From contig JABHKC010000021.1 in NCBI GenBank assembly GCA_018692315.1, forward strand, positions 1-38,126: 38,126 bases of DNA. Direction: 5' to 3'. The notes under the pieces are model-generated. The model was not told where the DNA came from and ran no database searches. It saw only the letters and a program-made list of their open reading frames with translations. Of this stretch, positions 2,679 through 38,126 are shown piece by piece (positions within the stretch are counted from its first letter, which is position 1; every line of letters starts with the position of its first letter). The position numbers and the translations under genes are program-made. This stretch comes from Bacteroidota bacterium. Lineage in GTDB: Bacteria; Bacteroidota; Bacteroidia; Bacteroidales; JABHKC01.

Positions 2679-3608
2679 TCACTTCTTCTGCTTCCTAAGC
2701 CAAATTTTATTTCCAACTTTTGGCTCGTTGCCTTTGGCCATAAGGTTTTTTTTGTATAGTTTGTCGAGTTTTATTCCATATTTTTGAGAGATAGAATACA
2801 TGGTATCTCCGCTTTTCACTTTATGAAATTCGTATTTTTTGTCGGCTTTCGATCTTTTTGGCTGAATGTATAATTTTTGTCCTTCCACGAGTTTGGCGTT
2901 TGTGGTGGTTTCGTTATATTTTGTTAGTTGCCAGCTCATTAGTCCGAGGTCTTTACTGATTTTTGCAAATGTGTCTCCTTTTTTTACTACAATATATTTT
3001 ACGCGATTGTAAGTTTTAATTTTTCTGCTTTTCGATGAAGAGGATAGTTTGTTTTTACTTTTTTTTGTCTTGTTTTTTGCAACTAATTCATTGTCATTCG
3101 ATTGGTATTTCTCTTCATCAAATCTGTGAAGTTCGTTATCTTCAATTATTGTAATCAAAAGCTGAGGATATTTTGGATTTGTTGCATAACCGGCTTTTTT
3201 CAAACCTTTTGCCCATCCTTTATAATCAGTAATTTCTAAGTCGAACAAAGCAGAATATCTTGGTTTTTTCAAAAACTCACTATGGTCTTCGTATGATTCT
3301 TTTACAGAATTATATTTCCTAAAGCATTCGTGTTTTTTGTCATCGTCTTTATACATTTTTTTTCCTGTCCAACTGCTATGGCATTTTATACCGAAATGGT
3401 TATTAGCTTTTCGCCCAAGTTTGCTGTTTCCATTGTCAGATTCTAGCAGTCCCTGAGCAAGAGTTATGCTCGCTGGAATACCACTTCGTTTCATTTCTTT
3501 GATGGCAATTTCTTTATATTTCTCAATGTAATCATGTCGGGTAATTTTTTGCGAAAAAGCAAAAACTTGGATGGAAACTATTATTAATATCAAAAATATT
3601 CTTTTCAT
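2679..3608 (-). CDS. Secreted glucosaminidase with two LysM domains
   Basis: This 309-residue peptidoglycan hydrolase has an N-terminal signal peptide (residues 1-19, FLILIIVSIQVFAFS). A glucosaminidase/FlgJ-like lysozyme domain follows at about 25-165: SITLAQGLLESDNG carries the presumed catalytic Glu56, and NNHFGIKC is also typical. A Lys/Ser-rich linker leads to two LysM repeats at about 204-250 and 261-306, each starting with Y/FxxVKxGDT, which would anchor it to the cell wall glycan. The protein should act in the periplasm on murein, in growth or separation. It is the last gene of a minus-strand block, about 48 bases after the lipoprotein gene. No partner in the window points to a more specific role. 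Confidence 0.88.
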   Translation of the reverse strand: MKRIFLILIIVSIQVFAFSQKITRHDYIEKYKEIAIKEMKRSGIPASITLAQGLLESDNGNSKLGRKANNHFGIKCHSSWTGKKMYKDDDKKHECFRKYNSVKESYEDHSEFLKKPRYSALFDLEITDYKGWAKGLKKAGYATNPKYPQLLITIIEDNELHRFDEEKYQSNDNELVAKNKTKKSKNKLSSSSKSRKIKTYNRVKYIVVKKGDTFAKISKDLGLMSWQLTKYNETTTNAKLVEGQKLYIQPKRSKADKKYEFHKVKSGDTMYSISQKYGIKLDKLYKKNLMAKGNEPKVGNKIWLRKQKK

Positions 3609-12893: not shown

Positions 12894-12900
12894 CATCAGA

Positions 12901-12975
12901 AATGGGGTGCTTAATTTTATGGCTGAGATCATACCCTTTGAACCTGAAACGGGTAATGCCGGCGTAGGGAACAAG
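12901..12975 (+). ncRNA. TPP (THI-box) riboswitch
   Basis: The conserved thiamine pyrophosphate aptamer words appear in order: GGGGTGC at 12904-12910, GGCTGAGATCATACCC (pyrimidine-sensor arm with CUGAGA), TTGAACCTGA, then GGGTAATGCCGGCGTAGGGA closing the aptamer. It lies in the leader of a TonB receptor gene, so the receptor is expected to be shut down when thiamine pyrophosphate is plentiful. Confidence 0.95.
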
Positions 12976-12987
12976 ATATGAACAACC

Positions 12988-30891: not shown

Positions 30892-31024
30892 AATATCAAT
30901 TATTTAGTTGTTTGAAATGTATTGCCTTTTTCGATTATCAAATTGTTTGACTGAATTTTAGAGAGTTATCTAAAATTAGCTATCCAGATTAGAACATTTC
31001 TTTGTCGAAATCTTTGATCAAAAA

Positions 31025-31048
31025 AAAAGGAAGTTCACACTTCCTTTT
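31025..31048 (-). terminator. Terminator of the thrS-infC-rpmI-rplT operon
   Basis: AAAAGGAAG (31025-31033) pairs with CTTCCTTTT (31040-31048). On the minus strand the stem runs into eight Ts, 72 bases after the rplT stop. Confidence 0.8.
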
Positions 31049-31119
31049 ATTTTAGTTTTATTTTGGATATAATGAATCATTAAAAATATTTCAAACTTAA
31101 TTTGTTTGCGATTCACTAA

Positions 31120-31464
31120 TTATTTCACAAGATTCACAATTGCTTCAAAGGCTTTTGGATGGTTCATTGCCAAATCAGCAAGTGTTTTTCTGCTTAGTTC
31201 AACATTATTTTTATGAATTTTACCCATAAATTCTGAATACGAAAGTCCATGCAATCTGGCTGCTGCATTTATTCTCTGAATCCACAATCCTCTGAAATTT
31301 CTCTTTTTGGTTTTTCTATCTCTATATGCATACTGCAGTCCTTTTTCGTATGCGTTTTTGGCTACTGTCCAAACATTTTTTCTTCTTCCGAAGTAACCTT
31401 TTGTTTTTTTAAGTATTCTTTTTCTTCTGTGCTTTGATGCTACTGAATTTACCGATCTTGGCAT
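31120..31464 (-). CDS. rplT: 50S ribosomal protein bL20
   Basis: This 114-residue protein starts [20 protein letters not shown] and has the typical [40 protein letters not shown] and C-terminal helix. It is needed early in large-subunit assembly. In several phyla L20 binds its own mRNA and represses the operon. A structured element just upstream (31480-31534), repeated before rpmI, is the likely site here. It is the last gene of the operon. Confidence 0.98.
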
Positions 31465-31479
31465 AATAAACTGTTTTAT

Positions 31480-31534
31480 GAATGATTAGCGGAAACAATC
31501 TTTAGTTTCTCTTTACAGCTAATTCACTCTGGTT
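31480..31534 (-). promoter_or_regulatory. Leader RNA element A, before rplT
   Basis: The RNA reads GAGUGA-A-UUAGC (31529-31518), pairing with GCUAA-UCAUUC (31490-31480): 11 bp with one bulged A. An internal loop holds UGUAAAGA. An inner helix GAAAC (31509-31505) pairs with GUUUC (31496-31492). The sequence words AACCrGAGyGAATTAGCyG, AAAGAGAA, TTCCGCTA and TTTATTATGCC recur in element B. Confidence 0.65.
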
Positions 31535-31565
31535 TTAACTTAATTATTTAATACAAAATTTTAGA

Positions 31566-31763
31566 TTATTTCATGGCTAAGCATTGCTTAATATTATTAA
31601 GGTCAGCCTTATCTACTATTGTGAAATAAGTAAGATTTCTCTTTCTTTTTTTAGATTTTTTCGTTAGGATATGACTTTTATAAGCATGTTTTCGCTTTAT
31701 TTTTCCTGTGCCGGTAATCGAAAATCTTTTCTTTGCACCGGCTAATGTCTTCATCTTTGGCAT
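31566..31763 (-). CDS. rpmI: 50S ribosomal protein bL35
   Basis: This 65-residue protein is read from [20 protein letters not shown], the conserved L35 start. Longer in-frame sequence upstream is leader RNA, so ATG at 31763 is chosen. The body is Lys/Arg-rich ([20 protein letters not shown]). It lies between infC and rplT, with a copy of the leader element on either side. Confidence 0.97.
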
Positions 31764-31778
31764 AATAAATTCTATTTT

Positions 31779-31844
31779 GAGCTTATAGCGGAACCTTATA
31801 ATTATCAATTAAAACTGTTCTCTTTCGGCTAATTCGCTCCGGTT
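31779..31844 (-). promoter_or_regulatory. Leader RNA element B, before rpmI
   Basis: A second copy of the rplT leader. GAGC (31839-31836) pairs with GCUC (31782-31779), UAGC (31831-31828) with GCUA (31789-31786), and an inner GAAC (31820-31817) with GUUC (31794-31791). The internal loop keeps CGAAAGA. Relative to element A, the fourth outer pair changes from U-A to C-G and the third from G-U to G-C, so pairing is kept while sequence changes. Confidence 0.65.
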
Positions 31845-31917
31845 TGTATAAATTAATTTTTATTTGGATTATTCTGTATATAAATGTATTAAGGTTGAAA
31901 TCCGATAATCTGAATAT

Positions 31918-32481
31918 TTATTTCTTTTTAGCTTTCGGAGAAATAAACATTATCATTTTTTTTCCTTCAAGTTTAGGTAGTTGTTCTACTTTTCCGTACT
32001 CTTCAAGTTCCTGGGCGAGGCGCAACAGAATTATTTCTCCTTGCTCTTTAAAAACTATTGATCTTCCTCTGAAGAAAACAAAGGCTTTAACTTTTGAGCC
32101 TTCTTCAAGAAATTTTACGGCATGTTTCAATTTGAAATTAAAATCGTGTTCATCGGTATTGGGCCCAAATCTAATTTCTTTGACAGTAACTTTACTGGTT
32201 TTTGCTTTGATTTCTTTTTGTTTCTTTTTTTGCTGATATAGAAACTTCTGATAATCAATTACTTTGCAGACCGGAGGATTTGCTTTTGGCGAAATTTCAA
32301 CCAAGTCTAAATCTAAATCGTCTGCAATTTTTATTGCTTCTCTTAACGAAAAAATTCCAGGATTATCAATATTGTCTCCAACAATTCTAACAACCGGTGC
32401 TTTAATTTTGTCGTTTATCAAAAACTTCGATTTCTGTTCCGGAAATCTGTTTTGTCCCCTATTAAATCTCTTAACTGCTAT
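31918..32481 (-). CDS. infC: Translation initiation factor IF-3, probable AUA start
   Basis: This 187-residue factor keeps the subunits apart and proofreads initiator tRNA and start codon. The N domain [19 protein letters not shown] and C domain ([32 protein letters not shown]) are complete. No ATG, GTG or TTG stands at the expected beginning. The Bacteroidota-like N-terminus ([19 protein letters not shown]) is open only back to an in-frame TAG, and ATA at 32481-32479 lies 8 nt after AGGAGG. A TTG at 32421 would cut off 20 residues of basic tail. A rare start codon fits known IF-3 autocontrol (AUU in Escherichia coli), where IF-3 discriminates against its own start. Confidence 0.9.
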
Positions 32482-32489
32482 TTTAAAAT

Positions 32490-32523: not shown

Positions 32524-34479
32524 TTAATCTTCAATAGGTTTAAGTTGCTTTTCAACTTCCGTTTTTATTAATTCAGCAAATTCTTCAATCTTAAATACTC
32601 CTTTAACACCTTCGCCTTGTCTTCTTACTGACACAGTCAGGCTTTTTTCTTCATTTTCGCCTACAATTAACAAATAAGGAATACGGCGTAACTCACTATC
32701 TCTTATCTTTTTACCTATCTTTTCATTACGCTCATCAATAATGCCGCGAATATCGTAATTATTTAGAACTTCCAAAACTTTTTTTGAATATTCGTTATAT
32801 TTTTCACTTATAGGCAGCAAAATGAACTGCTCGGGAGTCAGCCACAGCGGAAATTTTCCTTTTGTGTGTTCAATCAAAACTGCAACAAATCGTTCCATAG
32901 AACCAAATGGAGCTCTGTGAATCATTACGGGTTGGTGCTTTTGATTGTCATTCCCTGTATATTCTAAATTGAACCTTTCCGGCAGATTATAATCAACCTG
33001 AATTGTTCCGAGCTGCCAACTTCTGCCAAGTGCATCTTTAATCATAAAATCGAGTTTCGGACCATAAAATGCAGCTTCGCCAATCTCAATAACAGTATTT
33101 AAGCCTTTCTCTTCGCAGGCTTCCATTATTGCTTTTTCGGCTTTTTCCCAGTTAGAATTGCTTCCAATATATTTCTCAGAATTATTTGGGTCTCGTAGCG
33201 ATATTTGGGTTGTAAAATCTTCAAAATCTAATGTTTTGAAAATGTATAATACAATATTAATTACCTTAATAAATTCGTCTTTTAGCTGGTCGGGGCGGCA
33301 AAAAATGTGTGCATCGTCCTGAGTAAATCCTCTTACTCTGGTTAGACCGTGAAGTTCGCCGCTTTGTTCATATCTGTAAACAGTTCCAAATTCTGCATAC
33401 CTAATAGGCAATTCTTTGTAAGAGTGCGGTTTAGCTTTGTACAATTCGCAGTGATGCGGGCAGTTCATTGGTTTTAGCAAAAATTCTTCTCCTTCGGCAG
33501 GAGTCGAAATTGGCTGAAACGAATCTTTTCCATATTTCTCGTAATGCCCGGAAGTTATATATAGTTCTTTTCGTCCTATATGAGGGCAAATCACAGGTTC
33601 GTAGCCATGAGCTTTTTGTGCTTTTTTAAGGAAATTTTCTAATCGTTCGCGAAGCATTGCACCTTTTGGCAACCAAAGAGGTAATCCTTGTCCTACGTTT
33701 TGCGAAAAAGTGAAAAGTTCTAATTCTTTACCAATTTTACGATGATCTCGTTCTTTAGCTTCTTCAAGCATCACGAGATATTCGTCCAGAAATTTTTTCT
33801 TCGGAAACGAAATCCCATAAACTCTGGTAAGTTGTTTTCTGTTTTCGTCTCCACGCCAATAAGCACCGGCTATACTTGTAAGCTTCACAGCTTTTATGAA
33901 TCCTGTATTTGGCAGATGCGGACCTCTACACAAATCGGTAAAATTTCCTTGCGTATAAAGGCTTATGGTTCCATCTTCGAGTTCGCTGATTAGCTCAACT
34001 TTATACTCATCACCTTTTTCTTCAAAATAATCTAATGCCTCTTTTTTCGAAATTTCTTTACGAATATATTCTTGCTTCTGTCTTGCAAGTTCGAGCATTT
34101 TATTTTCAATTTTCGCAAAATCGTTGTCCGAAATTGTATTTTCTCCAAGATCTACATCATAATAAAAACCTCTGTCGATAGTTGGTCCGATGGCTAATTT
34201 TACTCCCGGGAAGTAATGTTCCAAAACTTCAGCCATTAAATGTGCCGACGAATGCCAAAAAGCATGTTTTCCTTCATCGTCGTTCCATGTATGTAGTTTT
34301 ATTGTGGTATCAAAATTTATTGGACGCATTGCATCCCATATTTCGGCGTTCACAGAAACGGCAATAACTTCTTTTGCCAGCCTTGAACTTATACTTTTGG
34401 CTATATCTATTCCGTTTATTCCTGAAGGAAATTCCTTAATGTTTCCGTCAGGAAATGTTATTTTTATTAATTCGTTCAT
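32524..34479 (-). CDS. thrS: Threonyl-tRNA synthetase
   Basis: This 651-residue enzyme charges tRNA(Thr). The TGS domain spans about 1-62. The editing domain has [17 protein letters not shown] and a C-terminal [12 protein letters not shown]. Class II catalytic motifs are [17 protein letters not shown] and [11 protein letters not shown], with zinc ligand Cys in MNCPHHC. The anticodon-binding domain closes the protein ([15 protein letters not shown] onward). Full length and all motifs are intact. It heads the operon with infC 42 bases downstream and has a well matched promoter. Confidence 0.98.
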
Positions 34480-34499: not shown

Positions 34500-34532
34500 C
34501 AAAGATATATATTTTCTGCTTCCAAAAGCAAA
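34500..34532 (-). promoter_or_regulatory. Promoter of the thrS-infC-rpmI-rplT operon
   Basis: Minus strand TTTG (34532-34529), 21 nt, TATCTTTG (34507-34500): an exact consensus match, with the -7 box ending 20 bases before the thrS start, so the 5' leader would be very short. Confidence 0.75.
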
Positions 34533-37816: not shown

Positions 37817-37904
37817 TTTTTTTCTTTTAAATACCAGCGTAGAGTAGAGCCTGATAGCCTATTCATATTTTTTTTTCTACAAAGATAATAAAATTAGTTA
37901 GACT

Positions 37905-38126
37905 ATCAGTACCCCTTCATCAAACCGTACGTGAAGTTTTCCCTCATACGGCTTACCGATAGAGTTCTTCATTGAGCTTTCGCAAGGGTTTTCAAACGAG
38001 CATACTTTTCCAAGTCTAACAGCCATTTGCCTTTCACAAATGTACTGTATGGGTGTTGGCGTAACACCTTGTGCGCTTTCCTTCCTTTGCTTGGCTCTAA
38101 TGTATAGCTTCCTTTGAAAAACACGA
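37905..38126 (-). mobile_element. 3' part of a group II intron (domain V), running off the right edge
   Basis: On the minus strand a 33-base segment at 37954-37922 reads AAGCCGTATGAGGG, a short loop, then CTTCACGTACGGTTT. This is the near-universal domain V hairpin of group II introns (GCCGTAYG...CGTACGGYT). GATGAAGGGG follows, where domain VI should start; I could not define the exact 3' splice point. The frame through domain V gives the familiar HVRFDEG read-through. A second open frame of 51 codons ends at 37969 and may be the tail of the intron-encoded protein. The intron body lies beyond the window. Confidence 0.7.

Follow-up and report, generated by a model that had tools for sequence, protein, structure and literature searches.

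A compact stem-loop resembling the L20 site of 23S rRNA, present before both rpmI and rplT in a Bacteroidales genome and conserved before rplT through much of Bacteroidia

The ribosomal protein genes rpmI and rplT of a Bacteroidota bacterium (order Bacteroidales) are each preceded by a copy of the same compact RNA element, whose core, by its sequence and pairing, copies the junction of helices 40 and 41 (H40-41) of 23S rRNA, the known binding site of ribosomal protein L20. Both copies lie in a contig of 38,126 nt (JABHKC010000021.1, assembly GCA_018692315.1), which we analyzed as a whole and refer to as the window. We consider it likely that each copy is a translational operator to which free bL20 binds, with repression of the cistron that follows. 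The element before rplT is conserved through much of Bacteroidia without being universal in the class, and it covaries in the way expected of a folded RNA.

In the window, infC, rpmI and rplT follow one another in this order downstream of thrS, all on the minus strand and co-directional, as assigned by Pfam (Table 1). The infC-rpmI gap is 154 nt long and the rpmI-rplT gap 101 nt. A promoter-like site was found before thrS, called Bacteroidota-type by a consensus that we take to be the one used in this phylum. The same promoter scan gave no promoter-like site in either the infC-rpmI or the rpmI-rplT gap, and a promoter inside the gaps was therefore dropped as a reading; the sequence of both gaps also has no T (U) run between either element and its start codon. 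The original prediction had placed the elements before rpmI and rplT, which holds, their location being more exactly the two intercistronic gaps. Elsewhere in the window, a TPP riboswitch match at 12898-12987 (+) scored 55.4 bits, barely above the gathering score of 54.3, and a group II intron match (RF00029, 47.4 bits) lies at 37839-37956 (-), close to the contig end.

Table 1. Features of the infC-rpmI-rplT locus in the window and parts of the two elements
Feature	Positions	Strand	Basis or detail
Terminator-like hairpin with T run, 3′ of rplT	31020..31053	(-)	Sequence
rplT, ribosomal protein bL20, putative repressor	31120..31464	(-)	PF00453, E 3.7e-42
Element before rplT	31480..31529	(-)	Minimum-energy fold; R1 match 31477-31537; conservation; covariation
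rplT copy, outer helix P1	GAGUGA 31529-31524 / UCAUUC 31485-31480; UUAGC 31522-31518 / GCUAA 31490-31486	(-)	
rplT copy, loop and closing pair	J UGUA 31517-31514; AAG 31513-31511	(-)	Bulged A31510; closing pair G31511-C31491
rplT copy, inner helix P2	GAAAC 31509-31505 / GUUUC 31496-31492	(-)	
rpmI, ribosomal protein bL35	31566..31763	(-)	PF01632, E 5.3e-27
Element before rpmI (second copy)	31779..31839	(-)	Minimum-energy fold; R2 match 31776-31847; descriptor
rpmI copy, outer helix P1	GAGC 31839-31836 / GCUC 31782-31779; UAGC 31831-31828 / GCUA 31789-31786	(-)	
rpmI copy, loop and closing pair	J CGA 31827-31825; AAG 31824-31822	(-)	Bulged A31821; closing pair G31822-C31790
rpmI copy, inner helix P2	GAAC 31820-31817 / GUUC 31794-31791	(-)	
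infC, initiation factor IF-3	31918..32487	(-)	PF00707 and PF05198; start codon unfixed, translated interval from 32487
thrS, gene directly upstream of infC	32524..34479	(-)	Pfam
Bacteroidota-type promoter-like site TTG...TATATCTTTG before thrS	34500..34531	(-)	Promoter scan

Both gaps carry the blocks AACCrGAG, GAATTAGC, TTCCGCTA and TTTATTATGCC in identical order, which bears out the original prediction that one element occurs twice. The differences it had pointed out between its copy A (the rplT copy) and its copy B (the rpmI copy) are present as well, at outer pair 3 (G-U versus G-C) and pair 4 (U-A versus C-G). Its helices were also correct, and what it overlooked is the G-C pair that closes the inner helix beside a single bulged nucleotide. 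The minimum-energy fold of each copy is the structure given in Table 1, with an additional small hairpin in the long loop of the rpmI copy, and the core cytosine (C31491 for rplT, C31790 for rpmI) lies exactly 27 nt upstream of the start codon in both. Compared with shuffled sequences, the rplT copy is unusually well folded (z -3.49), and the rpmI copy alone is no better folded than its shuffles (z -0.96). For that reason, the case that the element is more than a chance fold rests on its relatives, not on the two copies alone.

Read 5′ to 3′, the core consists of G-(C/U), a loop, AAG, one bulged nucleotide, a hairpin, C and (G/A)-C, where the loop between G-(C/U) and AAG measures 3-5 nt in 135 of the 152 matches to a descriptor of the element before rplT. 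The counterpart in E. coli 23S rRNA is G1002 G1003 U1004, CCCA, A1009 A1010 G1011 and U1012, followed by the inner helix C1013-G1017 (CAUGG) / C1145-G1149 (CCAUG), by C1150, and by A1151 C1152 C1153, so that the order of the parts, the pairs and the bulge are the same in the two RNAs. The 23S rRNAs of Bacteroides finegoldii, Hymenobacter volaticus and Persicobacter psychrovividus also keep this arrangement, the closing pair being A-U instead of G1011-C1150 in Bacteroides and Hymenobacter and G-C in the leaders. No 23S rRNA was found in the window's own assembly, and the likeness thus rests on the 23S rRNA of other organisms. At the pair next to the loop, the 152 descriptor matches before rplT have C-G 131 times, U-A, as in 23S, 16 times and U-G five times. 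The G-C and C-G pairs and the AAG occur in both window copies and in all 88 rows of alignment A6 (described below), whose seed was chosen for this core.

As described in PMC6962249, the H40-41 junction is bound by the C-terminal domain of L20, which in E. coli represses rpmI by way of a structure resembling that junction; the L20 leaders described from elsewhere retain two G-C pairs and an AA dimer (PMC7247131). Among L20 chains of solved ribosomes, chain Q of 7JIL, from Flavobacterium johnsoniae, is one of the two nearest to the L20 encoded here. The present element has the features that mark an L20 leader acting by rRNA mimicry: two consecutive G-C pairs with an AA dimer, and the H40-41 layout of loop, AA, closing pair, bulge and helix. 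It also has a place before a gene of the L20 operon, with one checked whole-genome match, in genome G516, lying before rplU instead.

To follow the element in relatives, we collected rplT loci from 80 named genome records together with regions from genomes of the order, class and phylum. Where a relative has both gaps, the one between rpmI and rplT is mostly long and element-bearing, and the one between infC and rpmI is often short. Two covariance models were built: R1, from an alignment (A5) of 21 relatives that excludes the window, and R2, from an alignment (A6) in which R1 was widened to 88 matches, including the window's rplT copy and excluding its rpmI copy. Alignment A5 replaced the seed alignments A3, A7 and A8, in which internal-loop columns were misplaced, and A4, which held a wrong, tRNA-like slice of 51 bases from locus L137; these four were used for no model. 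Searched with R1, which contains no sequence from the window, the window's rplT copy scores 23.9 bits (E 0.2 in 488 kb). In a scan of the window's own 4.98 Mb genome with R2, the rpmI copy is the sole match at E <= 1 (27 bits, E 0.078); the rplT copy is unlisted in that scan, though R2 finds it in locus L002.

Across three sets of loci of the class, which include seed loci, R2 matches lie before rplT at E <= 1 in 68 of 99, 90 of 97 and 35 of 58. The first set gave 69 matches, one of which (L096) lies inside rplT and was left uncounted; the second gave 92, the two beyond the 90 lying before rpmI; and the third comprises 32 of 40 loci of the order and three of 18 other loci of the class. A match is absent from 31 of 99, seven of 97 and 23 of 58 loci, some of which carry divergent forms visible by eye, and R2 gave no match before rplT in 22 loci of other classes. 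The descriptor gave a similar picture, occurring before rplT in 152 of 250 loci of the class, compared with four of 2500 shuffled gaps, and in none of 15 loci of other classes (those of the 22 with an identified start). The distance from the core C to the ATG is 24-29 nt in 142 of the 152 matches.

Whole-genome scans placed the element in the same position. R1 matched 36 of 149 genomes at E <= 0.001, once in each, and every match is located 8-14 nt upstream of rplT; seeds had come from 14 of these genomes and not from the other 22. Among 393 genomes of the order, 224 had R2 matches at E <= 0.01, with two matches each in G438, G516 and G532. Our check of position covered 29 of these matches beyond the R1 set, all 29 with a known rplT position and all 10-13 nt upstream of rplT, many of them in genomes that are R2 seeds; the known exception is the second match of G516. 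Of 296 genomes of the phylum, 12 had R2 matches at E <= 0.01; each of the 12 belongs to the window's class, and a manual comparison with rplT positions put every match just upstream of that gene. Since scans of whole genomes miss weak matches, as with the window's rplT copy, these counts are lower bounds. In one relative (L093), a Bacteroidales-1 (6S-like) RNA lies 3′ of rplT at 3039-3215 (+), with 186 bits; this is a separate RNA beside the same gene.

The original prediction had been staked on conservation and covariation of these gaps in related genomes, and a covariance-model search found both to be strong. In A6 (88 sequences aligned by the model), 94.6% of cells are paired, compared with 70.8% after shuffling, 245 cells carry double changes compared with 66, and the covariation score is 0.635 compared with 0.177, each of these three values never being reached in 500 shuffles. 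Controls in which the partner strand was slid gave 32-43% paired. The other two of the five measures showed no excess over shuffled alignments, namely pairs changed on both sides (8 versus 7.5) and further pair types (27 versus 27.7). Because A6 is fitted to the structure, we additionally ran an alignment-free test anchored on primary sequence only, with one C(G/A)C 23-32 nt before the ATG and G(C/T)...AAG upstream, anchors that are present in 208 of about 250 loci. In these 208 loci, P2 pairs 0 to 3 are paired in 92, 97, 93 and 83%, compared with shuffled means of 43, 74, 53 and 49, and each P2 pair occurs with at least five pair types. P1 pairs 2 to 4 are paired in 86, 76 and 63%, compared with 67, 43 and 49 when shuffled, and the outermost P1 pair tested did no better than one slid version (63 versus 68%). 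P2 and the inner part of P1 are therefore well supported, and the register of the outermost part of P1 varies.

The twin arrangement of the window, which the original prediction took as the basis for separate control, is not general, since in most of the relatives sampled a site is recognised before rplT alone. The descriptor occurs before rpmI in six of 261 loci, compared with six of 2610 shuffled gaps: in the window, L173 (genome G438), L194 (G363), L283, L287 and L300. Besides the window, twins are found by model match in G438, G363 and G532, and by eye in G326 (L176); G438, G532 and G326 belong to one family. The rpmI copies of G438 (E 8e-4) and G363 (E 0.088) were found by R1 and later put into the R2 seed, and in G532 two R2 matches 299 nt apart flank rpmI. 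In a further family (L283, L287 and L300, plus L297-L299 by eye), the site stands before rpmI, and no site was recognised before rplT. For two of these relocated loci infC lies 242 and 272 nt upstream; in the other four the stretch examined gave no infC. Several members of this family also have a TACCTTTGC-like promoter site close upstream, seen by eye.

A double copy is thus rare among the relatives and a single copy widespread, and the ancestral state in the class was probably one site before rplT. The two hairpins are nearly identical in G438 and similar in the window, and they differ in G363 and G532; their likeness in G438 and the window therefore suggests that these twin copies arose by duplication or conversion within the genome. 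A protein tree of IF3, L35 and L20 from 134 loci was too weak to count the origins of twins, the window's clade having a support of 0.28 and G363 falling in another clade.

The same core also occurs before rplU-rpmA. In G516, the second R2 match lies upstream of the L21 gene, its end 19 nt away from it, with the L27 gene next. The strict descriptor, applied to 115 regions upstream of rplU, gave 26 matches, of which two are out of register. Limited by position, the descriptor matches 25 of 115 regions (L308/L311 and regions among L311-L427), compared with three of 1150 shuffled ones, and the core is visible by eye in about a dozen further loci outside this count. R2 itself matched three of 30 rplU loci at E <= 10 (L311, L332 and L312, the last at E 0.23). 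The evidence for the element before rplU consists of a single R2 match from the first scan, two or three others in the fetched loci, the descriptor and reading by eye. In its commonest form, GGGU-J-AAG-N-helix-C-ACCC or AGGC...GCCU, the rplU element resembles 23S at least as closely as the element before rplT does. No such element was seen at the window's own rplU (L323). Eight rplU leaders (L322, L327, L331, L386, L413, L415, L422 and L424) share a GGAGGTAAC or TAACCTGT-like block after the element, and several of the eight have ACAG just before the ATG, which may allow extra pairing.

The presence of the core before rplU-rpmA in part of the order suggests a wider L20 regulon, with either L20 or L21 as the reader; E. 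coli rplU-rpmA is described as unresponsive to its own products (PMC10931766). We give a somewhat better than even chance to the broader reading that L20 controls a small regulon in the window's order by means of one rRNA mimic, acting at rplT in most sampled genomes, at rpmI where the site was duplicated in a few (and, in another family of the class, where it stands in place of the rplT site), and in trans at rplU-rpmA in part of the order.

The most likely mode of action of the element is the following. The RNA would imitate the H40-41 junction: its outer helix finishes with two G-C-type pairs in a row and opens into an asymmetric loop whose last nucleotides are AA, and the inner hairpin follows, closed by a G-C pair beside which a single nucleotide is bulged. 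L20 made in excess of free 23S rRNA would bind this mimic fold. As 15 nt separate the end of the outer helix's 3′ arm from the start codon, bound L20 would be expected to obstruct the 30S subunit or keep it away and so to halt translation of the cistron concerned, such that surplus L20 would shut off its own production and that of its neighbour. With a duplicated site before rpmI, repression could act on L35 and L20 separately, with no need of translational coupling. That L20 reads the element, as the original prediction had proposed without remarking on the 23S likeness, is well supported, because conservation and covariation are strong and the core reproduces L20's site on 23S rRNA; binding and repression are what we infer from these comparisons.

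Among other explanations, a protein-binding operator with a different ligand, namely L35, IF3 or L21, fares best, though we regard it as unlikely. Sites also occur before rpmI and rplU, so the identity of the ligand cannot be read from the flanking gene alone; however, it is specifically the L20 site on rRNA that the core copies, and by far the commonest place by descriptor is directly before rplT. Slightly less likely still is an element without a ligand, such as a standby or unfolding structure that sets how fast initiation or mRNA processing proceeds. Such a role would fit the constant spacing to the ATG, and leader structure may matter more in Bacteroidota, which are described as initiating without Shine-Dalgarno pairing (PMC10931766), yet it needs no conserved unpaired AAG, bulge and closing C arranged as in 23S rRNA, and the checked matches sit at L20, L35 and L21 genes.

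A bL20-bound translational operator is preferred over transcriptional control because the spacing to the ATG is tight, a T run is lacking, and both gaps separate genes of one direction and showed no promoter-like site in the scan. Transcription attenuation, with the hairpin as terminator or antiterminator, is the way L20 is described as acting in Bacillus subtilis (PMC6097659, PMC10931766), and we dropped it here as very improbable, since neither copy is followed by a U run, both stand between genes just before start codons, and attenuation does not need the tight spacing observed. Chance similarity or a low-complexity artefact of AT-rich gaps, to which the plain fold of the rpmI copy alone might point, is in effect refuted for the rplT element by the shuffled gaps and the covariation.

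Compared with known L20 systems, the element is a new scaffold of a known kind, distinct from both the E. coli operator and the Rfam family RF00558. The E. coli rpmI-rplT operator likewise mimics H40-41, represses translation, as we infer for the present element, and precedes rpmI like one of the copies here. It is described as having two sites, a long-range pseudoknot and an irregular hairpin, which act jointly before rpmI, with rplT following by coupling (PMC6962249, PMC10931766). In contrast, each cistron in the window has its own compact stem-loop, one per gap in the fold found, and relatives commonly have just one site, before rplT. RF00558 (L20_leader, Firmicutes) is, as proposed for the present element, an L20-binding junction of two helices that controls an infC-rpmI-rplT operon, but the B. 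subtilis leader is described as lying before infC and working by transcription termination (PMC6097659, PMC10931766), whereas both elements here lie after infC and have no U run. We ran the comparison to the Rfam L20 leader that the original prediction had called for, and found no RF00558 match over the gathering cut-off in the window, 61 genomes of the phylum, 20 relatives and 16 further loci. Matches below the cut-off in the phylum (30-35 bits versus 58.7), with gene positions unmapped, were taken as chance. No Rfam 15 family matched the gaps in the window and relatives scanned.

The candidate L20 motif of Deltaproteobacteria (Eckert and Weinberg 2020) shares the two consecutive G-C pairs and the AA dimer, but it belongs to another lineage and has a scaffold that differs, by its description, from earlier L20 leaders, description being the level at which we compared it (PMC7247131). 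L20 leaders are described there from Gammaproteobacteria and Firmicutes, along with this candidate, and the L20 motifs named in the part of that article drawn on here include none from Bacteroidota. No Bacteroidota L20 leader was found named in the portions consulted of PMC9976891, PMC7160235, PMC11109978, PMC2864571 and PMC9723704. The statement in the original prediction that no Bacteroidota version had been described nevertheless needs correcting, as HMP2_39 (Fremin and Bhatt 2021), one of thousands of structured candidates, is described as 49 bp long, mostly from Alistipes and directly upstream of L20, and is a possible leader (PMC8040213). An Alistipes sp. locus (L111) carries the present element upstream of L20 (R2 E 3.5e-4), and HMP2_39 is probably a piece of it, judged by description rather than by letters. 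Spread through the class, rRNA likeness and a second copy are not given for HMP2_39 in the account drawn on (PMC8040213). As far as searches of the literature (supplements excluded) and of Rfam 15 reach, the spread through the class, the close likeness to the rRNA junction, the duplication or relocation to rpmI and the presence before rplU are new.

L20 feedback has so far been established in Gammaproteobacteria and Firmicutes. If the proposed reading is true, Bacteroidia, a major gut and marine class whose ribosomes work without Shine-Dalgarno pairing, would gain a compact L20 operator that reproduces the rRNA site almost exactly, and the element would give a new Rfam-type family for annotation. 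Its natural variants, whether single, twin, relocated or before rplU, form a ready series on the movement of an operator between cistrons, and bear on how the L35:L20 stoichiometry may be kept when the genes need not be translationally coupled.
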